Below, piece by piece: positions 1,860-21,051 of a DNA stretch of 21,974 nt. The notes beneath the pieces were generated by a model. It made no database searches. It was given only the letters and a program-made list of their open reading frames with translations, and had not been told where the DNA came from. A program made the position numbers and the translations under genes. The stretch's first letter is position 1, and every line of letters begins with the position of its first letter. Source of the stretch: a virus; IMG/VR virus record IMGVR_UViG_3300042934_000335, positions 1-21,974 of that record. One strand, 5' to 3'.

Positions 1860-2240
1860 ATGCGTATCACGTTCAGCAGCAGCGGCGACTTCCGCAGAAC
1901 CAAAAAGTCACTCATGAAGATGTCCTCAGGGGAAATCTTCCGGGCACTTGACAAGTATGGTAAGCAGGGGGTTACTGCGCTAGCGAGCGCGACACCGGCC
2001 GACTCCGGATTGGCTGCGGCGTCTTGGGGCTATGAAGTACAACGCTCCAAGACGTCGTGGTCAATCCACTGGACCAACAATGACGTCGAGAATGGATTCC
2101 TTGTCGTGATCGGCCTACAGTATGGCCACGGCACAGGCACCGGCGGTTGGGTCCAGGGAAGAGACTTTATTAACCCGGCTATCCAGCCGGTATTCGATCG
2201 TATCGCAGACGACGTATGGAAGGCGGTGAAATCTGCATGA
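1860..2240 (+). CDS. HK97-gp10-like tail completion / neck protein, 126 aa
   Basis: The ATG follows AATAGGAG at good spacing. The 126-residue protein has the layout of the HK97 gp10 family: a basic helical N-terminus, then TPADSGLAAASW (about residues 44-55), then a beta region leading to YGHGTGTGGW and GRDFINPAI (about 86-111), and a C-terminal helix. In that family the T-P-x-D-x-G-x-L/A and G-T-x-x-x-x-x-x-x-R-x-F-I/L-x-P-A signatures are usual, and members act in the neck or tail completion. Its stop overlaps the tape measure start (ATGA). Finding it directly before the tape measure is notable because that position usually holds tail assembly chaperones. Confidence 0.7.
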   Translation: MRITFSSSGDFRRTKKSLMKMSSGEIFRALDKYGKQGVTALASATPADSGLAAASWGYEVQRSKTSWSIHWTNNDVENGFLVVIGLQYGHGTGTGGWVQGRDFINPAIQPVFDRIADDVWKAVKSA

Positions 2241-5200: not shown

Positions 5201-7036
5201 ACGCTCATCCAAGGGCTTATTGCTGTGGCTGCGGTTCTCGCAATCCTAGTCGTTGCTGCAAATGCGATGACCGGGGCAATCACCGGTGCCGGTGCCATGA
5301 TCGTTGTGGCCGGTGCTCTGCTTATTCTGTCCGGTGCAATTCTGATTCTGGGTTCGATGCCTCTGGGCAACCTTATCCAGGGTCTGGTTGGTATGGCCGC
5401 TGCGTTTGCGATCATTGGTTTGGCAGCACTCCTGCTGACGCCTGTGATGCCGCAGATGCTGATGCTCGCTGCCGCAATTGCTCTGGTGGGTGTGGGACTC
5501 GTGCTGATGTCTGGTGCGGTGCTCATATTCTCGTTGGCTATCATGATGCTTGGCCCGGCGCTCATGTCGGTATCGGGTGGACTGCTGGTCTTCGCGGATA
5601 CGGCTACGAAGGTGGTTGCTGCGGTTCCGGCGATGCTGGCTCTCGGTGTTGGCTTGATCGCCTTCGGTGCTGGTGCGCTGGTTGCTGGTGCGGGAATTCT
5701 GGTTCTTGGCATCGGACTCATCGCTCTGGGCGCTGGTTTGGCTCTTGTTGGCGCGGTTGGACTCATTGGTGCTGTGGCTCTGGCTGCGGTCATCAAGTCC
5801 ATGTCCAAGCTGACGGAGCACATCCCTGCGATGCTGATGCTCACCCCGACCTTCCTGGCTCTCGGTGCTTCGGTGCTGGTGCTAGGTGCGGGTCTGGCCG
5901 TGCTCGGTGCTGGTGCGCTCCTTACGGGGCTCGCCCTCATGATGCTCGTTCCGCTCGGCGGTCTGGTGACTGTGGCGTTCGCCATGATCATGAAGGCCAT
6001 CGATAAGGCAAATGCCAAGGCCGGAGAGACGCAAGAGCTCGGCACCACCATGGGTAAGCTGGGGACCAACATCCAGAAGGTTGGTACGAGTGGATCTGCC
6101 GCAGCCTCTGGGCTCAACGCTACATCCTCCTCGTTCACCGCTCTGAACACCACGGCCACGACCGCTGCCACGGGGGTTAAGACCCTCTCAACAGCTGTCA
6201 CGGCTATGGTACCGCCCGTTGTGATGTCTACGTCGGTCGTTTCGACGTCCTTCAAGACGATGTCCACGGCGGTTCTTCAGAGCACCAACCAGATGGTAAC
6301 CGGTTTCTCGGCCTACGTTCCGATCATGGCTGCTTCGTCCACTGCGATGGGGCGTGCTGCTGGTCAGAACTTGGTCCGTGAGGTTCAGAACCAGGTCGGT
6401 CCGGCCGGTAGCGCTGGCTATCAGATCGGTACAGCTGTTACGCAAGGAATGCGCAATGGTATTCAAAATGGGAGTTATCTGGTTTCGGCCGCTGCTCGCT
6501 CCGTAGCTCTGCAGGCGCTTGCGTCTTCTAAGGCTGCGCTTGGCGTGCATTCTCCCTCACGTGAATACTTCAAGGTGGGTGACTTCATGGACCAGGGTCT
6601 GGCTGACGGTCAGATCAGGAACGTGAAGACGGTTACCAACGCGTCGAAGTATGTCGCTGAGGCTTCCATCAAACAGATGAAGAAGTCCCTCTCGAACGTC
6701 GCGAATGCGATTACGGGAGACATGGAGGTTGCGCCGACCATCCGGCCGGTACTCGACCTCTCAGGAGTCAAGCAGGGAGCTAGCACTCTCGGCTCGATGT
6801 TCGGTGCGCCCAAGCTGCGCCTGGACAACAACTTCGCGCTCGCGCAGTCCGCGCAGGCAACAATCGAACCCGACGATGATGACGATGATGAGCCGATGGA
6901 ACTCCAGGAGCGCATCACTCAGGTGACATTCATCCAGAACAATACGTCCCCCAAGGCGCTCTCGGCGTCCGAGCTCAACCGCTCGACTCGCAACCAGATC
7001 GCCCGTGCTAAGGAGGAGTTGGCTAAGAAACCATGA
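2237..7036 (+). CDS. Tape measure protein, 1599 aa
   Basis: This is the longest gene and sets tail length. I start it at 2237 (MSTSIDERVVSMKFDNAQF) rather than the in-frame ATG at 2216, because 2237 overlaps the upstream stop as ATGA and the SIDERVVSMKFDNAQF opening is typical of tape measures from Gram-positive phages. Residues about 112-355 look like the tape-measure N-terminal domain (ETQINAVQTILSNTA, QALSAGKVSLMDWNSVVNAGM). Residues about 694-1252 are highly hydrophobic and repetitive, with a 60-residue period. Near residue 1438 is the HSPSREYF motif common at tape measure C-termini. The end is acidic (six Asp near 1546-1551), then basic. At about 1.5 angstroms per residue the tail would be roughly 240 nm, an inference from length alone. 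The stop overlaps the next gene by four bases. Confidence 0.95.
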   Translation: MSTSIDERVVSMKFDNAQFSKASSDTIKQLGDLEKGLKLDGATRGLQSIADAASKISLERLALAADTIQTRFSAMGTVVTGILLSLGGAVTNFAINAAKSLGTNLIASAKEGFGEYETQINAVQTILSNTASKGTTIDQVNAALLTLNKYADDTIYNFSEMAKNIGTFTAAGVDLDTSTAAIKGIANLAAMSGSNSQQASTAMYQLSQALSAGKVSLMDWNSVVNAGMGGQVFQDALKETARNHGIAVDDIIAKNGSFRDSLQDGWITSAVLTDTLAKFTGDLTKEQIISMGYTEQQADEIIKLGTNASDAATKIKTFSQLMGSLKESVSSGWAQSWQIILGDFEEAKVLFTEVSDRVGAIISASTDARNAQLQIWKDLGGRTAMIDAIRNAFDAVMQIVTPIGQAFRDVFPPSWGTTLAKISFALRDFTAGLKIGEQGSKNLYNTFKFLFTGLKFFTDLAGGALRIFFDNIKVGFQFIQGIVGLATPFITFLANLMGGVKGVDLSISGMVDGFIAMRKEIVGPVLEALSLAGTALNELLNGDPSKFSDMWSNAMKPLVKLGEDLKEKYANVIDFLETRFSPVGDRIAKNWSGVLAVVQAVMGFFKKVGQVIGQLFSELGGGFAELFEGADFDTVLAALNTGLLVGVVLAVRNAFKSITSIFDAAGSIGDGISGALEGLTGVLKGMAMDLKAEALLKIAGAIGILALSLLVLSMIDPGQMQQAAITLGIIAGAILGILVVVERIMSKSNEMSSWSDTLKGSFTSIGDSIKNNLNASALIKAAIALGIMAGAIILMAVAMGMIGSMAPETIIKGLIGITVAMGLLVGAAKIMEKFEGAILKSAFAMVVMAGAITALAGAVAIFGNMPIDVLIQGGIAVAITLAALVGAAVLISKFASQMVMSAVGLMAMAAALNMLVLPLTALGLLPMPFLIQGIAAIGIVLAILVIAAQALSALGPKMAIAAVGLMAMAAAVGQLVIPITALGSLDMATLIQGLIAVAAVLAILVVAANAMTGAITGAGAMIVVAGALLILSGAILILGSMPLGNLIQGLVGMAAAFAIIGLAALLLTPVMPQMLMLAAAIALVGVGLVLMSGAVLIFSLAIMMLGPALMSVSGGLLVFADTATKVVAAVPAMLALGVGLIAFGAGALVAGAGILVLGIGLIALGAGLALVGAVGLIGAVALAAVIKSMSKLTEHIPAMLMLTPTFLALGASVLVLGAGLAVLGAGALLTGLALMMLVPLGGLVTVAFAMIMKAIDKANAKAGETQELGTTMGKLGTNIQKVGTSGSAAASGLNATSSSFTALNTTATTAATGVKTLSTAVTAMVPPVVMSTSVVSTSFKTMSTAVLQSTNQMVTGFSAYVPIMAASSTAMGRAAGQNLVREVQNQVGPAGSAGYQIGTAVTQGMRNGIQNGSYLVSAAARSVALQALASSKAALGVHSPSREYFKVGDFMDQGLADGQIRNVKTVTNASKYVAEASIKQMKKSLSNVANAITGDMEVAPTIRPVLDLSGVKQGASTLGSMFGAPKLRLDNNFALAQSAQATIEPDDDDDDEPMELQERITQVTFIQNNTSPKALSASELNRSTRNQIARAKEELAKKP
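4561..5400 (+). repeat. Tandem 180-bp (60-codon) repeats inside the tape measure gene
   Basis: Motifs recur every 180 bp within the hydrophobic part of the tape measure gene. The block GCAGTCGGCCTGATGGCTAT occurs at 4940 and again at 5120, and the identity extends about nine bases further. CTCATCCAAGG-like sequence recurs at 5024 and 5204, with weaker copies 180 bp upstream of each. At protein level the unit reads roughly GSMxxxxLIQGLIAVAxxLAxLVxAA then a second hydrophobic helix VGLMAMAAA. The last clear unit is shortened to 56 codons (5204 to 5372). Copies are diverged except for the central pair, which suggests recent duplication or gene conversion there. Confidence 0.8.
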
Positions 7037-11074: not shown

Positions 11075-11521
11075 ATGACTGAAAGCAAAGAACTGCTGCG
11101 CAAGGACCTCGCAGAGGTCAAGACCCCGTTCATCAGCGATTCCACCTACGAGTTCCTTCGCAACAACGTCGAGATCGTCCTCCCGGCGATCGGCGTGGCG
11201 TACGCGGGACTCGCGATCCTGTGGGGCTGGCCCTTCAGTGAGCAGATCGTGGGGACGCTCGGCATCATCGGTATCCTCTTCGGTACCGTCATCAAGGTCA
11301 ACAAGAAGCGGGCGACGAATGTTCAGACGGTGGTCGCGCAACTGGATGCCATCGAGAAGGCTGAGGCGGATGCTGATCGCTATGCTGGCAATCTCATCCT
11401 GGGTACCGGCGACGAGCAGGAGGGGCTTCTCACCGTGGCGCTCGACAAGGAGCTCAGCGAGATCGCTAACCAGAGCGAGGTCCTACTGCGAGTGAAGAAC
11501 ATCGGTCTGTCCGGGATCTAA
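11075..11521 (+). CDS. Holin-like two-helix membrane protein, 148 aa
   Basis: The ATG follows AATAGGAG. Residues about 33-51 (EIVLPAIGVAYAGLAILWGW) and 57-74 (QIVGTLGIIGILFGTVIKV) are two hydrophobic helices joined by a very short turn, followed by a basic KKR and a long charged C-terminal tail. The pattern LPAIGVAYAGLAxLWGWPFxExIVGT strongly resembles r1t/phiLC3-type holins, which make the membrane lesion that starts lysis. The usual holin is shorter; the extra 70 residues form a helical tail. It is the last gene of the structural block, which fits. No endolysin lies beside it in this window, so the lysin must be elsewhere. A non-lytic membrane protein remains possible. Confidence 0.6.
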   Translation: MTESKELLRKDLAEVKTPFISDSTYEFLRNNVEIVLPAIGVAYAGLAILWGWPFSEQIVGTLGIIGILFGTVIKVNKKRATNVQTVVAQLDAIEKAEADADRYAGNLILGTGDEQEGLLTVALDKELSEIANQSEVLLRVKNIGLSGI

Positions 11522-11523
11522 CT

Positions 11524-11549
11524 TCGCGGGTTTCACATACGGTATAATG
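11524..11549 (+). promoter_or_regulatory. Shared-family promoter 1
   Basis: TCGC at 11524-11527, CACA at 11534-11537, TATAAT at 11543-11548. TCGC to the -10 is exactly 19 bp, as in nine other copies. It starts three bases after the holin-like stop with no terminator between, so late transcripts can also read through. It serves the gene at 11574. Confidence 0.75.
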
Positions 11550-11573
11550 AGATAACTCTTGAAAGGAGAACGT

Positions 11574-11873
11574 ATGCTGAAGCTTGTTAAGCCCACCGAG
11601 CACACGACACACCAAGATGTGAAGAACGACCTGCTGGAAGTTCTCCATGCCCTCGACCCCAGTGACGCCGAATACGACGCTCGCCTGGACCAGTACAAGA
11701 AGCTGTGCGAAATCGAAGCAATCAATGCTAAGGAACGCACCGGCATCAAAGCCTGGATCCCCGCGATCGGAAACGTAGCCGGCATCCTGACCATGGGCAT
11801 CCTGGAGATCAAAGGCCCTGCGATCTTCACGTCGAAAGCTGTGACGTTGTTCGGCGGGAAACTGCTGAAGTAA
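11574..11873 (+). CDS. Small conserved-type phage protein with C-terminal hydrophobic segment, 99 aa
   Basis: I use the ATG at 11574 because GAAAGGAG lies just upstream; an in-frame ATG at 11559 overlaps the ribosome site and is unlikely. Residues 1 to about 55 are charged and helical (DAEYDARLDQYKKLCEIEAI). Residues 61-78 (WIPAIGNVAGILTMGILEI) are hydrophobic and are followed by AIFTSKAVTLFGGKLLK. The layout (charged helix, single hydrophobic stretch, T/ITSKA near the end) resembles a widespread small phage family of unknown function. It has its own promoter 25 bases upstream and a strong terminator downstream, so it is a one-gene transcription unit. Confidence 0.8.
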   Translation: MLKLVKPTEHTTHQDVKNDLLEVLHALDPSDAEYDARLDQYKKLCEIEAINAKERTGIKAWIPAIGNVAGILTMGILEIKGPAIFTSKAVTLFGGKLLK

Positions 11874-11897
11874 CCAACCACTCACGACAACTCAACG

Positions 11898-11957
11898 CGA
11901 ACCGCGTGTAGGAGAATACCAACTCTTACACGCGGTTCGTGCTTGTGTTTTGTTTTT
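11898..11957 (+). terminator. Strong intrinsic terminator
   Basis: A perfect 13-bp stem, CGAACCGCGTGTA (11898-11910) with its complement at 11927-11939, and a 16-base loop are followed by a T-rich tail (TGTTTTGTTTTT). The loop contains GGAGAA, a Shine-Dalgarno-like sequence, which may be incidental. It closes the transcript of the 99-residue gene. Confidence 0.85.
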
Positions 11958-11994
11958 CCAAAAATTGCCCGGGGGGTATTTCTCCAAAAACCAA

Positions 11995-12020
11995 TCGCAG
12001 GTTCTACGGGTCCTATAATG
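11995..12020 (+). promoter_or_regulatory. Shared-family promoter 2 (orphan)
   Basis: TCGC at 11995-11998, TAC at 12005-12007, TATAATG at 12014-12020. The 19-bp spacing matches the family. No gene with a credible ribosome site follows before the U-run at 12108-12115, so this promoter appears to drive a short RNA. Confidence 0.65.
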
Positions 12021-12025
12021 AAACC

Positions 12026-12115
12026 GAAGAAACCGGTACCAGAACCGCGCAAGCAGGAATGGTATCGGCATGATGGACCATCCATCAAGCTGGTTTCACA
12101 ACCCCTATTTTTTTT
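12026..12115 (+). ncRNA. Candidate small RNA, about 90 nt
   Basis: The segment lies between a family promoter and a run of eight T (12108-12115). Two hairpins can form: GGAATGGT (12056-12063) with ACCATCC (12077-12083), one bulged A and a 13-base loop; and GGTT (12092-12095) with AACC (12100-12103), loop TCAC, directly before the U-run. The T-run runs into the TCGC box of the next promoter. An in-frame ATG at 12018 is part of the -10 itself and would not be in the transcript. A 22-codon ORF starting ATGATG at 12070 exists but its ribosome site is poor. No known RNA family is recognised. Confidence 0.4.
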
Positions 12116-12140
12116 CGCAGAAATCACAAGGGGTATAATG
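12115..12140 (+). promoter_or_regulatory. Shared-family promoter 3
   Basis: TCGC at 12115-12118, CACA at 12125-12128, TATAATG at 12134-12140, followed by the shared ACCACCC at the likely transcription start. The first T of TCGC is the last T of the preceding U-run, so terminator and promoter are fused. It serves the gene at 12165. Confidence 0.8.
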
Positions 12141-12164
12141 ACCACCCTACTAAAGGAGAACGAA

Positions 12165-12266
12165 ATGAACATCACCGAACGTTACATCTTCTGGACCGGT
12201 ACTGCACTCGCAGCAACGCTCTGGATCTGGAACGCCTACACCATCATCTCTGCCATCGTGAAGTAA
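12165..12266 (+). CDS. Single-pass membrane microprotein, 33 aa
   Basis: TAAAGGAGAACGAA precedes this ATG, and the promoter lies 25 bases upstream. The frame continues upstream, but only this start fits the promoter and ribosome site. The 33-residue peptide has a short polar N-terminus (MNITERY) and one hydrophobic helix (about residues 8-30, IFWTGTALAATLWIWNAYTI) and ends in VK. It is therefore likely inserted in the inner membrane as a monotopic peptide. Downstream is a compact terminator. It is the shortest gene in the array; no family recognised. Confidence 0.7.
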   Translation: MNITERYIFWTGTALAATLWIWNAYTIISAIVK

Positions 12267-12278
12267 AGGCAAGCGATC

Positions 12279-12300
12279 GGCTCTACGGAGCCTTTCGTTT
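12279..12300 (+). terminator. Intrinsic terminator
   Basis: GGCTC (12279-12283), loop TACG, GAGCC (12288-12292), then TTTCGTTTT. The U-rich tail abuts the TCGC box of the next promoter at 12301. The stem-loop core CTCTACGGAG is shared with the terminator at 12509. Confidence 0.75.
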
Positions 12301-12326
12301 TCGCAGGATTTACAGGGGGTATAATG
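12301..12326 (+). promoter_or_regulatory. Shared-family promoter 4
   Basis: TCGC at 12301-12304, TTTACA at 12309-12314, TATAATG at 12320-12326, then ACCACC. This is one of the copies closest to consensus. It serves the 50-residue gene at 12349. Confidence 0.8.
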
Positions 12327-12348
12327 ACCACCTACGAAAGGAAAAACC

Positions 12349-12501
12349 ATGTCTGTTTTCGCCCTCGACCTCGTCGCCCGCAAGTCCCTGAAGGACGGCG
12401 CGCAGAAGCTCCGCAACCACGTTGCAGCCAAGCGCGACGCCATCAAGACCGAGCGGGAGGCGCTCAAGGCAGAACTGAACGACAAGGCTCCCCAGGAGTA
12501 A
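12349..12501 (+). CDS. Charged helical microprotein, 50 aa
   Basis: The ATG follows ACGAAAGGAAAAACC, with a promoter -10 about 24 bases upstream. The product, MSVFALDLVARKSLKDGAQ onwards, is 50 residues. After a short hydrophobic start it is a continuous charged helix (KRDAIKTEREALKAELNDK), probably a coiled coil. It has no transmembrane helix, unlike most neighbours. It has its own terminator. Family and function unknown; codon use matches its neighbours (strong third-position C/G), which supports it as real. Confidence 0.7.
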   Translation: MSVFALDLVARKSLKDGAQKLRNHVAAKRDAIKTEREALKAELNDKAPQE

Positions 12502-12508
12502 CAAGGTG

Positions 12509-12532
12509 AGCCTCTACGGAGGCTTATCTTTT
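12509..12532 (+). terminator. Intrinsic terminator
   Basis: AGCCTC (12509-12514), loop TACG, GAGGCT (12519-12524), then TATCTTTT. Closely similar in stem and loop to the terminator at 12279, suggesting a shared origin of the two gene cassettes. Confidence 0.8.
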
Positions 12533-12542
12533 GGCCATGTAT

Positions 12543-12568
12543 TCGCGAGTTTTACAGGGGTTATAATG
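12543..12568 (+). promoter_or_regulatory. Shared-family promoter 5
   Basis: TCGC at 12543-12546, TTTTACA at 12550-12556, TATAATG at 12562-12568, then ACCACCC. It serves the gene at 12597. Confidence 0.8.
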
Positions 12569-12596
12569 ACCACCCTCTATTAAGGAGAACACTAAA

Positions 12597-12860
12597 ATGA
12601 ACGAACTCATGGACAGCAACGAAGCCGCCGAGTGCGACGCGAACATCACCGTCTACTACACCGAACCCGCGACTGTCCCGCAGCAGATCGTCAGTGCCGT
12701 CATCGCCACCCTGGCCCCACTCGCAGTGGGACTCGGAACGATGGGCCTGATCGTCGTTGCGGGCGCAGTCACCGACAAGGTGAAGACCCACCGCGCGAAC
12801 CGCAAGGCAGCCAAGGAAGCCAACACGATCGTCATCAAGGAAACCACCCCCACCGAGTGA
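12597..12860 (+). CDS. Single-pass membrane protein, 87 aa
   Basis: TTAAGGAGAACACTAAA precedes the ATG. Residues 1-30 are acidic and polar. Residues 31-58 form a long hydrophobic segment (IVSAVIATLAPLAVGLGTMG then LIVVAGAV), either one long helix or a tight helical hairpin. A basic segment follows (KVKTHRANRKAAKEA), suggesting a cytoplasmic C-terminus. The promoter upstream and the perfect-stem terminator downstream make it a single-gene unit. Function unknown. Confidence 0.75.
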   Translation: MNELMDSNEAAECDANITVYYTEPATVPQQIVSAVIATLAPLAVGLGTMGLIVVAGAVTDKVKTHRANRKAAKEANTIVIKETTPTE

Positions 12861-12866
12861 CATCAA

Positions 12867-12898
12867 AAATAGGAACCCCTAACACGGGTTCTTATTTT
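12867..12898 (+). terminator. Intrinsic terminator, first of two identical copies
   Basis: AAATAGGAACCC (12867-12878), loop CTAACAC, GGGTTCTTATTT (12886-12897): a 12-bp stem with one G-U pair, ending in TTTT. The same 32 bases recur exactly at 13211-13242. Confidence 0.85.
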
Positions 12899-12920
12899 CG
12901 CATGGGCTATCGTTTTGGTG

Positions 12921-12946
12921 TCGCGCAGTTTACATGGGCTTTAATG
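12921..12946 (+). promoter_or_regulatory. Shared-family promoter 6
   Basis: TCGC at 12921-12924, TTTACA at 12929-12934, TTTAATG at 12940-12946. The -10 differs at one base from TATAAT, so it may be weaker. The leader is longer than in neighbours (GAGATCA inserted before ACCACCC). It serves the gene at 12976. Confidence 0.75.
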
Positions 12947-12975
12947 AGATCAACCACCCTACTAAAGGAGAAATC

Positions 12976-13203
12976 ATGCCTCTGTTCAAGAAGCCGATCG
13001 ACCTCAACCACACCGTCAACGTCAACGTCGAACTCCCCGATTTGGAGGAGGCCGCGAAGCCCGTGCTCGATCGTGTATCCGAAATGATTCGGACCACCTT
13101 CATCACGCTGGCCATCGCGATCCCCACCGTCATCGTGTTCGCCGTCGTCGCCAATGTGGCTGGAGAAGTCGCTGCTGACAAGCTCATCAACCCCAACGAG
13201 TGA
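12976..13203 (+). CDS. Single-pass membrane protein, 75 aa
   Basis: I start at 12976 (MPLFKKPIDL) because ACTAAAGGAGAAATC lies just before; the in-frame ATG at 12934 lies inside the promoter. Residues 1-35 are polar with alternating hydrophobic residues (HTVNVNVELPDLEEA), residues about 41-60 are a transmembrane helix (TFITLAIAIPTVIVFAVVAN), and a short acidic tail ends in NPNE. Promoter and terminator flank it closely. Function unknown. Confidence 0.75.
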   Translation: MPLFKKPIDLNHTVNVNVELPDLEEAAKPVLDRVSEMIRTTFITLAIAIPTVIVFAVVANVAGEVAADKLINPNE

Positions 13204-13210
13204 CCAACTC

Positions 13211-13243
13211 AAATAGGAACCCCTAACACGGGTTCTTATTTTG
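13211..13243 (+). terminator. Intrinsic terminator, second identical copy
   Basis: AAATAGGAACCC (13211-13222), loop CTAACAC, GGGTTCTTATTT (13230-13241), then T. Identical over 32 bases to the copy at 12867. The next promoter's TCGC box begins at 13244, so terminator and promoter are contiguous. Confidence 0.85.
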
Positions 13244-13269
13244 TCGCGACTTTCACAGGGGGTATAATG
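13244..13269 (+). promoter_or_regulatory. Shared-family promoter 7
   Basis: TCGC at 13244-13247, TTTCACA at 13251-13257, TATAATG at 13263-13269, then ACCACCCC. It serves the gene at 13297. Confidence 0.8.
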
Positions 13270-13296
13270 ACCACCCCACTTACGAAAGGAACATTC

Positions 13297-13410
13297 ATGT
13301 TCGGAGGAAAGTATGGATTCTGGAGTTTCATTGGAGACTGCCTTCTCACGGCACTCACCAGCGGACTCTGGCTCATCGGAATCTTCGTACGCGAAATGCG
13401 ACGCAAGTAA
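13297..13410 (+). CDS. Single-pass membrane microprotein, 37 aa
   Basis: ACGAAAGGAACATTC precedes the ATG. The 37-residue peptide has a Gly/aromatic N-terminus, one hydrophobic helix (about residues 9-31, including LLTALTSGLWLIGIFV) and a basic REMRRK tail, giving an N-out/C-in prediction by the positive-inside rule. The pattern of a helix ending GLWLIxxFVREMRR is one I associate with small proteins found widely in actinobacterial phages. Own promoter and terminator. Function unknown. Confidence 0.75.
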   Translation: MFGGKYGFWSFIGDCLLTALTSGLWLIGIFVREMRRK

Positions 13411-13419
13411 CAACTAGTC

Positions 13420-13452
13420 AAGTGGGAACCTCTAACACGGGTTTCCATTTTT
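13420..13452 (+). terminator. Intrinsic terminator or attenuator, diverged copy
   Basis: AAGTGGGAACC (13420-13430), loop TCTAACACG, GGTTTCCATTT (13440-13450) with two G-U pairs, then TT. Its loop and stem resemble the copies at 12867 and 13211 but are diverged. Unlike those, no promoter follows: the ribosome site of the next gene starts directly after the U-run. Confidence 0.7.
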
Positions 13453-13464
13453 GAAAGGAGAATC

Positions 13465-13656
13465 ATGAAAGTGCCATGCCCCACCTGTGGTGCTGTTGGC
13501 GACCAGCCGTGTCGTCGTGGACGCAAGCCCCGGGACATCGCAGTGATCGGTCGACCCGTATCTGGCTTCTACGACGAAGCCGCTATCTGGCGCCGCAACA
13601 TCCCGTTCCCACAAGGACACGACTCGAGAAGGACCGCCAACGCAAGTGCCCAATAA
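13465..13656 (+). CDS. Zinc-ribbon microprotein, 63 aa
   Basis: GAAAGGAGAATC precedes the ATG. The N-terminus has CPTCGAVGDQPC (residues 5-16), a C-x2-C...C motif followed by RRGRKPRD, resembling the small CPTCG zinc-finger proteins common in actinobacteria and their phages. A fourth ligand is not obvious (His53 is a candidate). The basic stretch suggests nucleic acid binding. No promoter of the shared family lies between it and the terminator-like hairpin at 13420, so expression may depend on readthrough. The 3' end overlaps the next gene by 11 bases. Confidence 0.75.
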   Translation: MKVPCPTCGAVGDQPCRRGRKPRDIAVIGRPVSGFYDEAAIWRRNIPFPQGHDSRRTANASAQ

Positions 13657-13819
13657 GCAAACAGGCCCATTGGAGACACCTCCAGCCTATGTACTCAACA
13701 TCTTCGAGCTTAAGAGGCGAGGCTTAACTGGTGGACAGATAGCCATCAAGACTGGTTACAGCCCCTCGAAGGTACACACCGCAATTCGCTACTGGCGAGA
13801 CCGAATAAAGGAGAACTGA
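13646..13819 (+). CDS. Helix-turn-helix microprotein, 57 aa, GTG start
   Basis: Translation from GTG at 13646 gives 57 residues ending at TGA 13817-13819, whose last base starts the next ATG. The core ELKRRGLTGGQIAIKTGYSP is followed by SKVHTAIRYWRDRI. It fits a helix-turn-helix: helix, turn at GLT, GGQIAIKTG as the first HTH helix, SPSKVHTAIRYW as recognition helix. AAGGA lies 12 bases upstream of the GTG, a little far. The 11-base overlap with the zinc-ribbon gene and the TGATG link to the next gene support co-translation. It could be a phage transcription regulator, possibly acting on the shared promoters, but that is inference. Confidence 0.65.
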   Translation: MPNKQTGPLETPPAYVLNIFELKRRGLTGGQIAIKTGYSPSKVHTAIRYWRDRIKEN

Positions 13820-14136
13820 TGCTCAACAAGAAGATAGTCGAGAACCTGGTCAAGGTCGTTCGTAAGGCCTACAGTGACTACCCGAAGAACGACAGTACGG
13901 TCGACACGATGATCGAGCAAGGCATTCGTTCGGCCTATATTCGTGGGGTGCAGGCCAGCGACCGCGACGTCGAGGCCTTCACACTCGAGGACCGGATCGA
14001 GAGTCTCGCGGCAGATCGCCGACACGTAAGCATTCGCTGGACCAACATCGTCAACCAAGCAGCTGACGGTGATCCCATGGCCAAGGCTCTTGTCGCGGCG
14101 GTCCAGGTATACAGCCTTGAGCGGTACGGAAGCTGA
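13819..14136 (+). CDS. Hypothetical protein, 105 aa
   Basis: The ATG overlaps the HTH gene stop (TGATG), with AAAGGAG upstream. The 105-residue protein appears soluble and mostly helical (KKIVENLVKVVRKAYSDYPK at the start; DRDVEAFTLEDRIESLAADR in the middle). There are no Cys motifs or membrane helices. It is the last gene before a shared-family promoter three bases after its stop, so it ends the zinc-ribbon/HTH operon. I do not recognise it. Confidence 0.8.
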   Translation: MLNKKIVENLVKVVRKAYSDYPKNDSTVDTMIEQGIRSAYIRGVQASDRDVEAFTLEDRIESLAADRRHVSIRWTNIVNQAADGDPMAKALVAAVQVYSLERYGS

Positions 14137-14138
14137 CC

Positions 14139-14164
14139 TCGCGAGTTTTACATACCCTATATTA
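14139..14164 (+). promoter_or_regulatory. Shared-family promoter 8
   Basis: TCGC at 14139-14142, TTTTACA at 14146-14152, TATATT at 14158-14163. The -10 lacks the usual following G. There is no terminator before it. Its leader is about 110 bases long, far longer than the 20-30 bases of the other members, and is structured. Confidence 0.75.
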
Positions 14165-14183
14165 GAAGAGATCTAGAGATAGA

Positions 14184-14264
14184 TGTCCATCCCGCATCTC
14201 GCGGAGTGGCAGCCCCACTGGACGCAACGTAGCACCGCTACTTGCCCTTCTAATTTTGTTTTCT
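14184..14264 (+). ncRNA. Structured leader: candidate three-way-junction RNA with attenuator-like end
   Basis: P1 GTCCA (14185-14189) pairs with TGGAC (14219-14223). Inside are P2 CCGC (14192-14195)/GCGG (14201-14204) and P3 GTGG (14206-14209)/CCAC (14215-14218). Junction strands are only two, one and zero bases, so the helices could stack compactly. Downstream P4 GTAGC (14229-14233)/GCTAC (14237-14241) is followed by the U-rich TTCTAATTTTGTTTT, a possible weak terminator. It lies between a promoter and the ribosome site of the gene at 14280, so it may be a riboswitch-like attenuator or a small RNA. No known class is recognised, and folding was done by eye. Confidence 0.4.
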
Positions 14265-14279
14265 TGAAAGGAGAACACG

Positions 14280-14411
14280 ATGAAGAACAAGATGATCCGA
14301 GCAGCAAAGAAGGCTGCCTACTACTTCGGATTCCCGCCCAAGCAGGGTTCCCCGCTTTTCTCGGAGCGCCGGAACTATCGCTACCAGATGACGATGGCGT
14401 GGGCGTACTGA
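14280..14411 (+). CDS. Basic microprotein, 43 aa
   Basis: TTGAAAGGAGAACACG precedes the ATG. The 43-residue product begins MKNKMIRAAKKAAYYFGFPP and ends RYQMTMAWAY. The N-terminal basic helix followed by aromatic residues could associate with membrane or RNA, but there is no diagnostic motif. The TGA overlaps the next ATG by one base, so the two are coupled. It lies in an overlapping frame to a longer open frame starting at 14183, which I reject because it lacks a ribosome site. Confidence 0.65.
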   Translation: MKNKMIRAAKKAAYYFGFPPKQGSPLFSERRNYRYQMTMAWAY

Positions 14412-14686
14412 TGGCTACGAAGTTCGAGGTCGCCATCGAAGAGCTCCGCACGCTGGTCAAGGACAACGATGATCACGTCGTTCTCGACTTCACGGATCTC
14501 TCCGGACCGGAACTCGTCACCAAGAAGGCGGCGGTTCGCCACTTGGTCGAGAACGAGGGTTATGTGCTCTTCTACCATAAGCTGGTGCAGAAAGACACGG
14601 GGAAAGAGATCACCCTCAAGTCTCTCAACGTATCCGGCTCGACGTTTGTCGACACGAACAACATCTTGAAGGAGAGGCTGTCGTGA
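14411..14686 (+). CDS. Hypothetical soluble protein, 91 aa
   Basis: I start at 14411 (MATKFEVAIEELRTLVKDND) because it overlaps the upstream TGA. The frame is open further upstream, but that part would overlap the 43-residue gene and has no ribosome site. The 91-residue protein looks soluble, with alternating helix and strand: HVVLDFTDLSG, a Lys/Ala helix, GYVLFYHKLVQKD, then a Ser/Thr-rich C-terminus. No known motif. The end overlaps the GTG of the next gene (GTGA). Confidence 0.7.
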   Translation: MATKFEVAIEELRTLVKDNDDHVVLDFTDLSGPELVTKKAAVRHLVENEGYVLFYHKLVQKDTGKEITLKSLNVSGSTFVDTNNILKERLS

Positions 14687-14883
14687 AGACACTCGTCTGG
14701 TGGCTCGGAACCTTCGTGGTCCTCGGGGTTCTTATTTTCGGTGCCGGATGGCTTGAGGCCAACGTCAACGTCAATACCTTCGGGTGGATTATTGTGGGGG
14801 CGATGTTCGTCATCCTCTTCCTGATCCTCCTGACCAACGCATACCTCCGCAAGTACAAGGAAGAAGAAGATGACATTCGCTAG
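14683..14883 (+). CDS. Two-helix membrane protein, 66 aa, GTG start
   Basis: GTG at 14683 follows AAGGAG with suitable spacing and overlaps the upstream TGA. Hydrophobic helices lie at residues about 4-22 (LVWWLGTFVVLGVLIFGAGW) and 33-52 (FGWIIVGAMFVILFLILL), joined by a short ANVNVNT loop; the C-terminus is charged (RKYKEEEDDIR). By the positive-inside rule both termini are probably cytoplasmic. It overlaps the DUF6353-like gene by 14 bases, suggesting a shared membrane complex. It could be a holin-like protein, but its place in this operon argues against lysis. Confidence 0.75.
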   Translation: MKTLVWWLGTFVVLGVLIFGAGWLEANVNVNTFGWIIVGAMFVILFLILLTNAYLRKYKEEEDDIR

Positions 14884-15667
14884 CATCACGTCCACTCTGA
14901 GCCAGAAGATCGTTCAGAACTCGTCGGCTATCCTTACGGCCGCTGGGGTGGCTGGGGTGGTCTTCACCGGGATCCTGTCGGCCAGGGCTGCAATCCGAGC
15001 CCACGACGACATCCTCGCCGAGGAGGAGCGGCGGTACGTCAACGATCCGAACGACCCGGGCACTCCGCTCACTGCCAAAGAGAAGGTCCAGCTGACTTGG
15101 CTGCATTTCGTACCACCCCTGTCTGCCGGCTTGGTCACTATCGGCTGTGTCATCTCTGCACAATCGATCAACACAAAGCAGAAGGCGGCTCTACTGAGCC
15201 TCTACACCCTCTCCGACAGGGCTTTGACGGAGTGGCGGGACAAGACTCGGGAGCTTCAGGGTGACTCGAAGTACGCCAAGATCGAAGAGGAGATCATCCG
15301 CGATCGTGTTGCAAACCGCGACCCGATGGATGACCGCAATCTCCTCTCGGACTCCCGGCGTCTCGACGAGAAGATGGTCGAGTGCCTCGATGTCTGGACA
15401 GACCGATATTTCTGGGGCAACCAGAACATTGTCGACGCCGCCGTCAACGCGATCAACGCCGAGATCAACAACAACAACTACGCCTCCCTGAACATGTTCT
15501 ACGACATGATCGGGCTGGGGAATGTGCCGATGGGTGACGACTTCGGTTGGAACCTCGACCACAAGCTCGACGTGTCCTACTTCTACACGTCAGCGAGGGA
15601 TGCGAGTCCCGTCATGGGGGTTACGTTTCAGAAGCCTCCGAAACAGGATTACTACTCCTTTCGCTGA
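14870..15667 (+). CDS. DUF6353-like membrane protein, copy 1, 265 aa
   Basis: The ATG lies inside the end of the preceding gene. Residues about 20-38 (AILTAAGVAGVVFTGILSAR) and 80-98 (FVPPLSAGLVTIGCVISAQS) are hydrophobic, with a charged helix between. The central part, TKQKAALLSLYTLSDRALTE, is helical; the C-terminal third is soluble and contains NMFYDMIGLG. Architecture and motifs resemble the phage family I know as DUF6353 (function unknown), and a second related gene lies at 20101. Shared features are the N-terminal ILT.AGVAGV..T, a second helix after a Pro-rich turn, and N-x-x-Y-D-x-x-G-L near the end. It probably acts at the inner membrane. The family name is from memory. Confidence 0.8.
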   Translation: MTFASITSTLSQKIVQNSSAILTAAGVAGVVFTGILSARAAIRAHDDILAEEERRYVNDPNDPGTPLTAKEKVQLTWLHFVPPLSAGLVTIGCVISAQSINTKQKAALLSLYTLSDRALTEWRDKTRELQGDSKYAKIEEEIIRDRVANRDPMDDRNLLSDSRRLDEKMVECLDVWTDRYFWGNQNIVDAAVNAINAEINNNNYASLNMFYDMIGLGNVPMGDDFGWNLDHKLDVSYFYTSARDASPVMGVTFQKPPKQDYYSFR

Positions 15668-15824
15668 TTATCCGATCGCGCTGATACCCATATATTGCTC
15701 GGCATGTGGGTTGGAGATCGAACCTTACGAGCAACTCATCCCCAAACGCTATAAGGACGCCGTGTTCGTGTACCACGGATATCCTTATGCGTGCTATCCA
15801 TTCGAGAAGGACAAGAACACATGA
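15600..15824 (+). CDS. Zinc-knuckle protein, about 74 aa, start uncertain
   Basis: The convincing part of the frame is the C-terminal half: CSACGLEIEPYEQLIPKR then VYHGYPYACYPFEKDK. The CxxC and HGYPYAC groups look like a treble-clef or knuckle zinc site (C-x2-C...H-x5-C). The only in-frame ATG with this stop and reasonable length is at 15600, which overlaps the upstream gene by 68 bases and has a weak ribosome site. The real start may be nearer 15670 at a non-standard codon. The motif resembles the 67-residue protein at 19894. The stop overlaps the next ATG (ATGA). Confidence 0.6.
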   Translation: MRVPSWGLRFRSLRNRITTPFADYPIALIPIYCSACGLEIEPYEQLIPKRYKDAVFVYHGYPYACYPFEKDKNT

Positions 15825-15958
15825 TCCCAGTTCCGGGGTGGTCATACCTCCGTGCAGTACGAGAGCGTCGTGAGAAGGATCTCGCGGCCCGACAGGAGGT
15901 TCGACACAAGAAGGCCGTGGCTAAGCGGCGCAAGGCCAAGCGCGGTGGAAAGCGCTGA
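15821..15958 (+). CDS. Strongly basic microprotein, 45 aa
   Basis: ATG at 15821 overlaps the zinc-knuckle stop (ATGA), and its own TGA overlaps the next ATG (TGATG). The 45 residues begin MIPVPGWSYLRAVRERREKD and end in a Lys/Arg-rich tail (HKKAVAKRRKAKRGGKR). This charge suggests nucleic acid or phospholipid binding. The overlaps on both sides and the unbroken frame support it being real. A basic microprotein also follows the second DUF6353-like gene. Confidence 0.65.
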   Translation: MIPVPGWSYLRAVRERREKDLAARQEVRHKKAVAKRRKAKRGGKR

Positions 15959-16098
15959 TGGGCGTCACCTACGACCGCGATTCCGGCGAGAAGTACATGG
16001 AGTGCGACGACAAGACCTGCCAGAGAGAAATCCGAGGCAATAACGTCGCGCTACACGCCGGGAACGTCTACCACGCTGAATGTGCACCAGGTGGCTGA
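15958..16098 (+). CDS. Small Cys/His (zinc-binding) protein, 46 aa
   Basis: The ATG overlaps the upstream TGA. The 46 residues include MECDDKTCQREIRG (C-x4-C) and VYHAECAPGG (H-x2-C), a spacing typical of a small zinc knuckle. There is no membrane helix. It is the second Cys/His microprotein in this operon within 400 bases. Whether it binds metal is inferred from ligand spacing only. Translation appears coupled to the neighbours. Confidence 0.65.
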   Translation: MGVTYDRDSGEKYMECDDKTCQREIRGNNVALHAGNVYHAECAPGG

Positions 16099-16372
16099 TG
16101 CGTTATTCGATACCTGGGAGGGCGATGATTCCACTTTCGAGGGGGATCTGACTCGGGTACTCAAGAAGCACGGCATTGAGGTCGAGGGGCTCTCGGACGA
16201 ACAGCTGACGGTCTTCGTCACTGCGACTCTGGGAGCCCTCACCCAAGCCAAAGGCAACTCATCCGAGTTCGTCACGTCCATGTTCATGCTGTATAAGGAG
16301 ACTGAGATTGGCCTACGACGTCGAGCAGCTTCTCAGAGAGCAGCGAGAGTTCCAGCAAGAGTTGGTGAATAA
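16091..16372 (+). CDS. Hypothetical acidic protein, 93 aa, GTG start
   Basis: The frame can start at GTG 16082 or GTG 16091; I prefer 16091 (MADALFDTWEGDD) because it overlaps the upstream stop by less, although neither has a clear ribosome site. The protein is acidic and helical (DLTRVLKKHGIEVEGLSDEQ), then becomes abruptly basic and Ala/Arg-rich near its end (RRRAASQRAARVPARVGE). That tail is read in the region that also encodes the start of the next gene, an overlap of 65 bases. Function unknown. Confidence 0.65.
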   Translation: MADALFDTWEGDDSTFEGDLTRVLKKHGIEVEGLSDEQLTVFVTATLGALTQAKGNSSEFVTSMFMLYKETEIGLRRRAASQRAARVPARVGE

Positions 16373-16649
16373 GGAAGAGGCATTCCTTCGAGAAGAGTGG
16401 GAAAAGACGGGGCTATCCCTTGCGGATTGGCTTCGTTTCGCCGTGTACGAAAAGGGTGACGTGATTCACCAATTCGACGAGGCGACCAACTCATATTCCG
16501 CCCATCACATGTCCAGGGTCCGCCTCAAGACCCCGGAAGAACTCGAGGAATACGACCGCATGCTTGTAAATCGTAGTCCCGAGGAGATCGCACGGCACAA
16601 CCAGCAAATCGCGGCCATCGAGGACTCGCGAGAAATACAGGGCCTATAA
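16308..16649 (+). CDS. Hypothetical protein, 113 aa, TTG start
   Basis: TTG at 16308 follows AAGGAG with seven bases between, so a rare start is well supported. The product begins MAYDVEQLLREQREFQQELV, a coiled-coil-like helix rich in Glu/Gln. Later WLRFAVYEKGD and SRVRLKTPEELEEYDRML suggest a small soluble fold. The TAA stop lies inside the -10 hexamer of promoter 9, so transcription of the next operon starts as this gene ends. Overlaps the upstream gene by 65 bases. No family recognised. Confidence 0.7.
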   Translation: MAYDVEQLLREQREFQQELVNKEEAFLREEWEKTGLSLADWLRFAVYEKGDVIHQFDEATNSYSAHHMSRVRLKTPEELEEYDRMLVNRSPEEIARHNQQIAAIEDSREIQGL

Positions 16650-16651
16650 TG
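16626..16651 (+). promoter_or_regulatory. Shared-family promoter 9, inside the preceding coding region
   Basis: TCGC at 16626-16629, ATACA at 16635-16639, TATAATG at 16645-16651. The 19-bp spacing holds even though the element overlaps the last eight codons of the preceding gene. CACCACTTGAAAGG follows. It serves the gene at 16682. Confidence 0.75.
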
Positions 16652-16681
16652 ACCCACTGTCACCACTTGAAAGGAACTATC

Positions 16682-16930
16682 ATGACCGCTCAGGACACCC
16701 CCGTCGAGGACACCACCACGACCGAGGAGACCCCCAAGAGCACGAAGAAGTTCTCGCTCGGCCCCGTCGCCAAGAAGGTGCTCGTCTGGGGCGGAGCAGC
16801 GCTCGGTATCATCACCGTCGTTGCCATCGCCGCAGCCGCACGCCAGAACGACGACGAGGACCGCGAGATCTACGTGCTCACGGAGCTCCCGGACGCCACC
16901 CTCGACGAGACCCCCGCAGTCACCGACTGA
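16682..16930 (+). CDS. Single-pass membrane protein, 82 aa
   Basis: I start at 16682 because GAAAGGAACTATC precedes it; the in-frame ATG at 16649 is part of the -10. Residues 1-20 are Thr/Glu-rich and probably disordered, 21-31 basic, 32-53 hydrophobic (VLVWGGAALGIITVVAIAAA), and the C-terminus acidic (NDDEDREIYVLTELPDATLD). The positive-inside rule suggests the N-terminus is inside. A terminator follows. Same type as the array proteins at 12597-13410, so it is probably another cassette. Confidence 0.75.
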   Translation: MTAQDTPVEDTTTTEETPKSTKKFSLGPVAKKVLVWGGAALGIITVVAIAAAARQNDDEDREIYVLTELPDATLDETPAVTD

Positions 16931-16948
16931 CCCAAGTCGCAGTGAAGC

Positions 16949-16985
16949 GAAGTCAATGCTAACCACATTGGCTTCTGCTTTTTCT
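16949..16985 (+). terminator. Intrinsic terminator
   Basis: GAAGTCAATG (16949-16958), loop CTAACCA, CATTGGCTTC (16966-16975): 10 bp with one G-U pair, then TGCTTTTTCT. An upstream GAAGC (16944) offers an alternative partner for GCTTC. It separates the 82-residue gene from the DUF6275-like gene, which has no promoter of the shared family. Confidence 0.75.
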
Positions 16986-16996
16986 AAGGAGAAAAG

Positions 16997-17314
16997 ATGC
17001 CCGAAAACTTCCAGAAGAAGGCTCTTGAAGCAGCGGCTATGGTCGCCAACCGAGAGCTTTCCACGATCGAAGTAGACCCGCCGTTCGGTTTCGAGGGAAC
17101 CGTGTCGGCTGAGGACTTCTACGTCGTCTGGTTCTGCAAGACCCTTCAGAACTGGAAGGCGCTGGTCAGCACTGACGTAGTGTCTGGTTTCTACTTCGAG
17201 GTGACCTACAACGGTGACCGCGCAGAGACCTACGTCGATATTTACCAGAAGAACGCCAACCACCTGCTGTTCAACAGCGAATTCACGACCGCCCACCACC
17301 TCGCATCCGAGTAA
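16997..17314 (+). CDS. DUF6275-like protein, 105 aa
   Basis: TCTAAGGAGAAAAG precedes the ATG. The segment EDFYVVWFCKTLQNWKALV, then SGFYFEVTYNGDRAETYVDI (about residues 40-84), is a strong match to my memory of a phage family named DUF6275, whose members carry VVWFCKTLQNWKA and YYEVTYNGD. Function unknown; these small soluble proteins occur in many phages of Gram-positive hosts. It lies 15 bases upstream of the next gene and is probably co-transcribed with it by readthrough of the upstream terminator, or by a promoter I did not identify. Confidence 0.85.
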   Translation: MPENFQKKALEAAAMVANRELSTIEVDPPFGFEGTVSAEDFYVVWFCKTLQNWKALVSTDVVSGFYFEVTYNGDRAETYVDIYQKNANHLLFNSEFTTAHHLASE

Positions 17315-17329
17315 GGAACACACAACACA

Positions 17330-18115
17330 ATGATCAAGAAGACCATCACGTTCAAGAAGGTCGTCTTCGACGGCAACGGCGACGCAACCACCGTCACCCG
17401 CACCGAGGACTTCTACTTCAACCTCAACCAGGCGGAAGCGCTGGAGATCAACCTCATGGAGGACCTCGAGCGCCTCGCTGAGTCGACCAACCCGCGGGCG
17501 ATCATCCCCGTCTTCAAGCGCATCATCCACTACGCGTACGGTGTGCGTCTTCCCTCGGGCAAGTTCACCAAGGAGCCGGAGGAGACCACGGACTTCCTCG
17601 CGTCGGACGCCTACTCCGAGCTCTTCCTCGAGCTTCTCGGTGAGGGCGAGCAGGGTGTCGCGGACTTCATCAACAAGGTCATCGACTTCAAGGTGGACAA
17701 GCTCAAGGAGACGACCGACAACCTGCCGGCAGAAGCACCGTCGAACGTGCGTCAGCCCCAGGACTACCAGAAGTCGGCTCGTGAGATCGCGGCAGCTGCG
17801 AAGCAGGAGGTTCCCCAGCCTCTGCACGCTGACGTCGCACTCCCCGCCGGTACCCAGGTCGAGAAAGGACAGGTGATCGCCGTGGTCGGCGCAGATCCCC
17901 TCGCCCCTACGCTCCAGAGCGACCCCGATTGGGCGGCGTTCCAGGAGTTCAAGGCGCGACAGAACGCAGTCGATGCTCAGAAGCTTCCCGAGCAGGAGGT
18001 CTTCACGGGCGTCACCATCAACGAGGAGACCGCTCCTCAGATCATCGAGCGTGACGACGAGGCGACCATCGCTTCGCCGGCGTTCGAGTCCCGACGCGAC
18101 CTTCGCCAGGGATGA
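17330..18115 (+). CDS. Tail-assembly-chaperone-like protein with long C-terminal extension, 261 aa
   Basis: The ATG follows AAGGAACACACAACACA. Residues 1 to about 120 resemble a Gram-positive phage family often annotated as tail assembly chaperone: KKTITF at the start, RTEDFYFNLNQAEALEIN near 24-41, AIIPVFKRIIHYAYG near 57-71, GKFTKE, then AYSELFLELL and FINKVI near 120. Residues about 125-261 are an extra acidic, Pro/Ala-rich region, including VEKGQVIAVVGADP, read in the same frame with no evident slippery site. True tail chaperones lie directly upstream of the tape measure; this gene is more than 10 kb downstream of that gene. It may therefore have another role. An 11-bp hairpin follows. 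Confidence 0.7.
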   Translation: MIKKTITFKKVVFDGNGDATTVTRTEDFYFNLNQAEALEINLMEDLERLAESTNPRAIIPVFKRIIHYAYGVRLPSGKFTKEPEETTDFLASDAYSELFLELLGEGEQGVADFINKVIDFKVDKLKETTDNLPAEAPSNVRQPQDYQKSAREIAAAAKQEVPQPLHADVALPAGTQVEKGQVIAVVGADPLAPTLQSDPDWAAFQEFKARQNAVDAQKLPEQEVFTGVTINEETAPQIIERDDEATIASPAFESRRDLRQG

Positions 18116-18122
18116 CAGACGG

Positions 18123-18160
18123 CCGGGTCGGTAGTGGATGGGGATGCATTACCGGCCCGG
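18123..18160 (+). terminator. 11-bp GC-rich hairpin, possible terminator without U-run
   Basis: CCGGGTCGGTA (18123-18133) pairs with TACCGGCCCGG (18150-18160), one G-U pair, loop of 16 bases. AGAC (18117-18120) could extend it with GTCT at the base. No U-run follows; the next promoter starts three bases later. It could terminate the preceding operon or protect its 3' end. Confidence 0.5.
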
Positions 18161-18162
18161 TC

Positions 18163-18188
18163 TCGCAGTAAACACACGTGGTATAACA
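18163..18188 (+). promoter_or_regulatory. Shared-family promoter 10
   Basis: TCGC at 18163-18166, CACA at 18173-18176, TATAAC at 18182-18187. The -10 ends in C rather than T, so it may be weaker. It is the last family member and serves the long operon starting at 18235. Confidence 0.65.
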
Positions 18189-18189
18189 G

Positions 18190-18208
18190 AAGGCCTCACC
18201 GAGGCTTT
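18190..18208 (+). promoter_or_regulatory. Leader hairpin downstream of promoter 10
   Basis: AAGGCCTC (18190-18197), loop ACC, GAGGCTTT (18201-18208): eight pairs with one G-U. It lies at the predicted 5' end of the transcript, followed by CATATTTCTC and a GAAAGGAG ribosome site. It may be an attenuator or a 5' mRNA-stability hairpin. Confidence 0.45.
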
Positions 18209-18234
18209 CATATTTCTCTTGAAAGGAGAATGCA

Positions 18235-20100: not shown

Positions 20101-21051
20101 ATGACTCTGTTCAACCTGGACGCCGCGAAGCTCGTGGCAGGTCAGAAGTTCGGGAGGGCACTCCTCCTGGGCAAGAAGTACAGTCCGGAGGTGCTCACGG
20201 TCGTGGGTGTCGCCGGCGTGATCACGGCTGCGGTGATGATCGCCCGTGCAACGCTCAAGCTCGAGCCCGTCCTCGACAAGCACGAGGAGGAGATCGACGC
20301 CGCCAAGGAGCTCAAGAAGCTCGGGGAGTACAGCGAGGAGCAGTACAAGATCGATCTGACGCGCATCTACACCAAGCGCGCCGTCGATGTGTTCAAGCTC
20401 TACGTCCCCGGTGGACTGGTGCTCGGCACCTCGCTGGCCTGCCTCGTGGGTGCGTCCTGGACGCTCAAGAAGCGGAACGTGGCTGCTGTCGCGGCGTACA
20501 ACGTCATCAAGTCGCAGTACGACAACTACCGCCAGAACGTCATCGACGACCAGGGTGCTGACAAGGATCGGGACTACCGTCTCGGTCTGCGTGAGGAGAC
20601 GGTCATCGACTTCGAGACGGGGGAGGAGCGGGTCATCAAGAAGTCCGACCCGAACCGCTACTCGAAGTACGCGAAGATCTTCGACGAGAGCAACGTGAAC
20701 TTCAACAAGCACTGGCGTGAGGGCAACCTGACGTTCCTGCTCGGTCAGCAGAAGTTCGCCACGGAGCGCCTCCACTCGAAGGGGTGGCTCGTGCTGAACG
20801 ACGTCTACGACGCTCTGGGACTCCCGGAGACGCCGGATGGCGCTGTGACCGGGTGGGTTCTCGGTGCGGGTGGAGACGACTATGTCGACTTCGGCATCTT
20901 CGACCTGGAGAGCCCCGCGGCACGGGATTTCGTCAACGGCTACGAGCCGCACGTCATCCTCGACTTCAACATCGATGGGTTCATCCAGGACTTCATCGGT
21001 ATCGGCCAGCGACAGACCTCCTTCGAGGGGATCACCAAGGGTGACAGCTAA
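20101..21051 (+). CDS. DUF6353-like membrane protein, copy 2, 316 aa
   Basis: AAGGAGAACTAAGAA precedes the ATG. Residues about 31-48 (VLTVVGVAGVITAAVMIARA) and 101-120 (YVPGGLVLGTSLACLVGASW) are hydrophobic, separated by a charged helix; KKRNVAAVAAYNVIKSQYDN follows the second. The C-terminal soluble part has VLNDVYDALGLPE near residues 231-243, and a terminal domain. It shares the N-terminal motif, second helix and Y-D-x-x-G-L element with the protein at 14870, so the two are probably distant paralogues. Family name DUF6353 is from memory; function unknown. It overlaps the next gene by 11 bases. Confidence 0.8.
   Translation: MTLFNLDAAKLVAGQKFGRALLLGKKYSPEVLTVVGVAGVITAAVMIARATLKLEPVLDKHEEEIDAAKELKKLGEYSEEQYKIDLTRIYTKRAVDVFKLYVPGGLVLGTSLACLVGASWTLKKRNVAAVAAYNVIKSQYDNYRQNVIDDQGADKDRDYRLGLREETVIDFETGEERVIKKSDPNRYSKYAKIFDESNVNFNKHWREGNLTFLLGQQKFATERLHSKGWLVLNDVYDALGLPETPDGAVTGWVLGAGGDDYVDFGIFDLESPAARDFVNGYEPHVILDFNIDGFIQDFIGIGQRQTSFEGITKGDS

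Follow-up and report, generated by a model that had tools for sequence, protein, structure and literature searches.

The stretch of DNA analysed here (the window; 21,974 nucleotides, positions 1 to 21,974 of IMG/VR record IMGVR_UViG_3300042934_000335) is a fragment of a tailed actinophage and carries ten copies of a three-part element, with the full form TCGC-N7-ACA-N5-TATAAT(GA). We propose that these elements are promoters, probably read by the phage's own single-chain polymerase, phrog_4291, with a predicted start of transcription adjoining the hexamer in a T7-like layout.

The ten repeated elements are real. A scan of both strands with TCGC-N7-AC-N6-TATAAT returned ten sites, all on the + strand between 11524 and 18187, at the positions that a preliminary description of this DNA had given. 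Seven match the pattern exactly and three carry one mismatch each (12921, TTTAAT; 14139, TATATT; 18163, TATAAC). No further site with two or fewer mismatches was found elsewhere in the window on either strand, and the chance expectation, estimated with a near-identical pattern, is about 0.01 exact matches per window. When the copies were aligned, TCGC and AC were present in 10/10 and ACA in 9/10, T occupied hexamer positions 1 and 3 in every copy, and the hexamer was followed by G and then A in 8/10; the -35 position showed no conservation. In a 97.2% identical twin contig (G001), none of the 150 core positions differed, and 4 of the 120 spacer positions did. An ACCACCC sequence had also been described as shared by several copies. 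As seen in the alignment, ACCACC(C/T) directly follows the element at 12115, 12301, 12543, and 13244; it is displaced at 12921, and the copy at 16626 has GACCCAC.

Putative promoters of this type are spread over a large group of phages whose hosts are distantly related. In a scan of viral contigs with the pattern, many contigs among the matches listed hold several copies. All 20 records examined carry 6 to 22 copies each, always on a single strand, and a reversed control pattern gave 0 to 1 copies in the same records. Its geometry recurs in prophages of Clostridia and in phages that infect Arthrobacter, Gordonia, Rhodococcus, Streptomyces, Curtobacterium, Lactococcus, or Faecalibacterium; Arthrobacter phage Gordon, Rhodococcus phage ReqiPepy6, and several Gordonia phages are among the isolates that carry it. 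Streptomyces phage RosaAsantewaa (Rosa) has the form TCGC-N7-ACA-N5-TTAAAT-GAGACCC, Curtobacterium phage Eevee has the hexamers TTTAAT or TATAGT, the Lactococcus phages 1706 and P078 have ACA-N5-TATAGT or TATAAT, and Faecalibacterium phage FP_oengus has ACGC-N7-NCA-N5-CTTTAT-GGA, with 17 occurrences of CTTTATG(G/A) on the gene strand versus 0 on the other. Comparison of the consensus of each lineage indicated that the hexamer and the upstream elements drift together. The spacing is rigid, since TCGC-N15-TATAAT was found at 57 sites in six relatives and no site had a spacer of N8-14 or N16-19.

In promoters used by sigma-70/sigmaA, the A at -11 and the T at -7 are nearly invariant, the A being the base that sigmaA flips out and depends on. 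At hexamer position 2, which corresponds to -11, A was found in 6/30 sites of three lineages (Rosa, Eevee, and FP_oengus) versus 127/135 sites in the other lineages, and T at position 6 was kept in 154/165 sites across lineages. Sigma promoters also tolerate spacings of 16 to 18 base pairs (bp). A TTGACA-type -35 box 16 to 18 bp from the -10 hexamer scored at 13244 alone (TTGTCG, 16 bp), counts in the region were not above those of shuffles, and canonical -35/-10 promoters showed no excess over shuffles in the genomes of most relatives. The drift at position 2 (TTAAAT, TTTAAT, and CTTTAT), the lack of a -35 box, the fixed spacing, and RNA stems that begin at the hexamer edge (see below) therefore disfavor a reading by the host sigma factor. 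These results agree with the proposal of the preliminary description that the sites are not ordinary sigma-70 promoters but a promoter class of their own.

Among the 13 genomes compared, the families present in 13/13 were DUF6353, a Cas4-type exonuclease, phrog_4291, phrog_4079, the single-stranded DNA-binding protein SSB, the tail chaperone, the primase-polymerase, a helicase, and a VRR nuclease, and phrog_4291 is the sole shared family with an obvious promoter-reading role. The preliminary description had put forward a phage activator, repressor, or altered sigma factor as the reader, acting as one protein on one DNA face, and had named the products of two small helix-turn-helix genes at 13646 and 21356. 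We keep a phage-encoded reader, probably one protein on one DNA face, but not those three kinds of protein; both helix-turn-helix products were rejected, since neither belongs to the families common to the motif-bearing phages.

The gene of phrog_4291 lies outside the window and was found on the twin contig (G001:48071-50869). The protein has 870 to 1,030 residues in a single chain, with DFDGD in all copies examined and helix-turn-helix regions at both ends. The best fold matches of its structure model are QDE-1 (Foldseek E value, 2.7e-9) and plant RDR2, and a sequence search of the PDB with the polymerase profile gave helix-turn-helix-like matches only. Given the DxDGD motif and the modeled two-barrel fold, phrog_4291 is predicted to be a single-chain two-barrel RNA polymerase of the QDE-1 type. 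The gene is present in just about 250 of 50,697 phage records. Annotations of the family vary among "RNA-dependent RNA polymerase," "HTH DNA-binding domain protein," "structural protein," "tail fiber protein," and "transcription factor D5," with examples at L150:23543-26257, L152:5189-7942, L153:39649-42279, L192:2082-5171, and L196:20513-23173. The homologue in Lactococcus phage 1706, orf75, is annotated as "structural protein"; if that label is right, the polymerase could ride in the particle and begin early transcription. Phages 1706, P078, and FP_oengus, which infect unrelated hosts and have 38 to 45% identical polymerases, keep the register of the element unchanged. In a six-frame search, the Gordonia-type polymerase genes of G002, G005, and G006, near the right ends of these contigs, showed one in-frame TAG inside the profile match. 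Directly after the polymerase, 12/13 genomes encode phrog_4303, a conserved, acidic protein of about 85 amino acids with the motif STDNPYNPF..W..D..GY (for example, L152:7939-8214, L150:26267-26509, and L192:5175-5435), which is a possible polymerase cofactor.

The element and the polymerase occur together. phrog_4291 is encoded by 40 of the 52 records chosen by the motif or as relatives, most of the rest being fragments. When 23 contigs were selected solely for the polymerase, 20 had the motif. No match was found in the polymerase-less controls (5 records, about 1.46 Mb in total), which comprised ReqiDocB7, ReqiPine5, phiC31, and 1.28 Mb of Rhodococcus and Arthrobacter plasmid DNA; with these plasmids standing in for chromosomes, the equal motif density in host DNA that would have spoken against a phage-specific element was not seen. 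Among prophage loci picked from bacterial assemblies by their polymerase, 22/67 had at least five sites on the polymerase strand versus 1/67 on the other strand. We also observed a site of the same class 5' of the VRR-nuclease/Cas4/polymerase genes in seven genomes (Gordon, 54252; ReqiPepy6, 72596; Rosa, 38686; the twin contig, 351 and 639; G002, 55623; Eevee, 52488; G009, 5633), suggesting that expression of the polymerase probably depends on its own class of promoter.

RNA folding points to a start of transcription at the hexamer edge. Two promoters in the window are followed by predicted structured small RNAs on the + strand, at 12020 to 12097 (closing stem GAAACCG/UGGUUUC; z, -4.9) and at 14164 to 14251 (closing stem AGAAG/CUUCU, with the 3' arm followed by AATTTTGTTTT; z, -3.7), and in both the stem starts at the first base after the hexamer. 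Neither RNA had a tRNA or Rfam match. At the 166 sites analyzed, stems of at least 6 bp with a T-run after the 3' arm have their first base between -2 and +3 relative to the hexamer edge; at most of these positions such stems are above a within-genome permutation, with 0/200 permutations reaching the count at several. A start 7 bp later would leave the 5' stem arms untranscribed, which argues for a start at the hexamer edge. The preliminary description had expected initiation 6 to 8 bp after the hexamer, and the folded RNAs would instead place the 5' end at its first following base. Such a start would also account for the conserved GA, which would then open the transcript. Further promoters of this class were seen directly 5' of tRNA or tRNA-like sequences in ReqiPepy6 (L149:41173-41206) and P078 (L154:23987), and the ReqiPepy6 tRNA is flanked by a leader-trailer stem.

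In the mechanism that we propose, the polymerase, perhaps aided by a small phage cofactor, would contact a single DNA face and read three elements with rigid spacing: NCGC, then about one helical turn further on the (A)CA triplet, and then the T-W-T-W-A-T hexamer with GA. It would melt the hexamer, and the RNA would start at, or within 1 to 2 bases of, the first purine after it, so that the elements would lie at about -25 to -22, -14 to -12, and -6 to -1 relative to the start. The data show the geometry and its conservation, its link to the polymerase, the drift of the hexamer between lineages, and the stems beginning at the hexamer edge; from them we infer that the polymerase recognizes the elements directly, where the RNA starts, and that the virion delivers the enzyme. 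A wider proposal, on which we are evenly divided, is that a large group of phages of Actinomycetes, Bacilli, and Clostridia relies on a virion-delivered QDE-1-type polymerase to transcribe most or all of its genome from a -10-like three-part promoter, with the RNA starting at its edge.

The main rival, which we consider unlikely, is that the host sigmaA polymerase uses TATAAT while a phage activator at TCGC and ACA substitutes for the -35 contact, much as T4 MotA/AsiA or actinobacterial WhiB proteins do. Early phage genes are by default transcribed by the host polymerase, such an activator would fit the missing -35 box, and TCGC would fall at -31 to -28, where activators of this kind bind; moreover, TATAATGA(GA) is a near-ideal sigmaA -10 with its discriminator in most actinophage copies. 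However, the shift of position 2 to T by lineage, the identical register in phages of Actinomycetes, Bacilli, and Clostridia, and the RNA stems that begin at the hexamer edge speak against it. Besides the polymerase, the core genes include no shared helix-turn-helix regulator, and there is no canonical promoter from which the activator could be made first. It is less probable still that phrog_4291 is the enzyme and a separate specificity factor, either phrog_4303 or phrog_4079, reads the elements. Both families lack an assigned function and occur in 12 to 13 of the 13 genomes, but neither has a recognizable DNA-binding domain, whereas the polymerase has a helix-turn-helix at each end. Finally, the presence of many copies in one orientation, each covering a promoter-like hexamer, could suggest that TCGC-N7-ACA is a repressor operator placed over ordinary promoters, like the stoperators of mycobacteriophages. 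This is very improbable, because the element is present in phages described as lytic, no repressor is shared among the core genes, and the geometry is locked to a hexamer with which the upstream elements drift between lineages.

Several observations weigh against promoters read by phrog_4291. Taken as a sigma-70 -10, TATAATGA is a good one and has a favorable discriminator, most actinophage copies keep the A at position 2, and Lactococcus phages 1706 and P078 have a weak upstream element. The exact pattern is missing in 3 of the 23 polymerase-selected contigs, and 45 of the 67 prophage loci (with flanks of about 10 kb) have fewer than five sites. Common descent could also explain why motif and polymerase go together, as eight other families are likewise present in 13/13 genomes; in a Mantel test, motif distance correlated with the polymerase at a rho of 0.65 and with the primase-polymerase at 0.53, a slight edge that is not decisive. 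Moreover, the structure model is of moderate quality (predicted local distance difference test, 74.6), its global template-modeling score to QDE-1 is just 0.31, and the stem evidence comes from about 15 RNAs.

In the window, the putative promoters lie among small genes downstream of the tape measure gene (2216 to 7036) and a Dp-1-like holin gene at 11075; the window also encodes a tail assembly chaperone at 17330 and two DUF6353 membrane proteins. In 8/10 cases, the start codon of a small gene, with its ribosome site, lies 23 to 47 bp downstream of the promoter. Promoter 1 (11524 to 11550, TCGCGGGTTTCACATACGGTATAATGA) is 5' of a 99-residue gene at 11574, of the phrog_5818 family, which is kept at the same place in relatives, and promoter 3 (12115 to 12141) is 5' of a gene for a 33-residue membrane peptide at 12165. 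Promoter 4 (12301 to 12327) overlies the T-run of the preceding terminator hairpin at 12279 to 12292 and is followed by a 50-residue gene at 12349. Promoters 5 (12543 to 12569), 6 (12921 to 12947, with hexamer TTTAAT), and 7 (13244 to 13270) precede an 87-residue membrane protein gene at 12597, a 75-residue gene at 12976, and a 37-residue gene at 13297, respectively. Promoter 9 (16626 to 16652) overlaps the 3' end of the upstream gene and precedes an 82-residue gene at 16682, and promoter 10 (18163 to 18189, TATAAC then AGA) precedes a hairpin at 18189 to 18209 and a 109-residue gene at 18235. Promoters 2 (11995 to 12021, TCGCAGGTTCTACGGGTCCTATAATGA) and 8 (14139 to 14165, TATATT then AGA) are directly followed by the structured RNAs rather than by genes. 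Several promoters stand directly 3' of a terminator hairpin, as promoter 4 does, so that the region appears as a row of promoter-gene-terminator cassettes, reminiscent of the PeSL cassettes of T4-like phages. At 12265 to 12330, 12866 to 12950, and 13203 to 13270, the terminator T-run abuts the next promoter. The DUF6353 membrane protein (phrog_2152) is present as two diverged copies, at 14870 to 15667 and 20101 to 21051, and two copies are also found in most relatives of the phage group.

Promoters of single-chain two-barrel RNA polymerases are barely known, P23-45 being the one mapped case that we found. Our literature search found no published description of the present promoter class; the original descriptions of ReqiPepy6 and 1706 were outside the search, and an earlier notice of the repeats is possible. 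The analysis gives a predicted promoter code, start site, and candidate enzyme in cultured phages of Arthrobacter, Gordonia, Streptomyces, Rhodococcus, and Lactococcus, and it reinterprets a protein labeled "RNA-dependent RNA polymerase," "HTH DNA-binding protein," "tail fiber," or "structural protein." It also predicts rifampicin-resistant transcription and maps the operons of about 250 phage records, and Actinobacteria and Clostridia could gain an orthogonal expression system. If true, the proposal would combine ancient two-barrel catalysis with a T7-like promoter plan.

P23-45 is a known case of a phage whose two-barrel polymerases have promoters of their own; these are likewise single-chain enzymes on the QDE-1 side of the tree, and their conserved promoter motifs were seen by ONT-cappable-seq (PMC10770324). 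The polymerases of P23-45 are different ones, and its gp96 is fused to the tape measure, whereas here there is one stand-alone polymerase, with a rigid tripartite motif that imitates the bacterial -10, many single-gene promoters, and a broad host range. YonO of Bacillus phage SPbeta is also a single-chain DNA-dependent RNA polymerase with a DxDGD motif, and the sequence of its promoter was described as undetermined (PMC5467207). As a sequence relative of phrog_4291 it was rejected (hhalign probability, 4%; phrog_4291 is absent from SPbeta), and the element geometry was not found on the gene strand of the SPbeta stretch examined. T4 middle promoters resemble the present sites in a short MotA box about 30 bp upstream, a TATAAT, and no -35 box, but they need the host polymerase and a small activator and lack a second (ACA) element; an activator of this sort is not shared by the present phages. 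T7 promoters have a similar plan: as predicted for the present sites, the start comes right after an A/T-rich melting element, the first bases are purine rich, and specificity bases lie upstream at a fixed distance. The T7 polymerase has an unrelated fold, and its promoters have another sequence and spacing.

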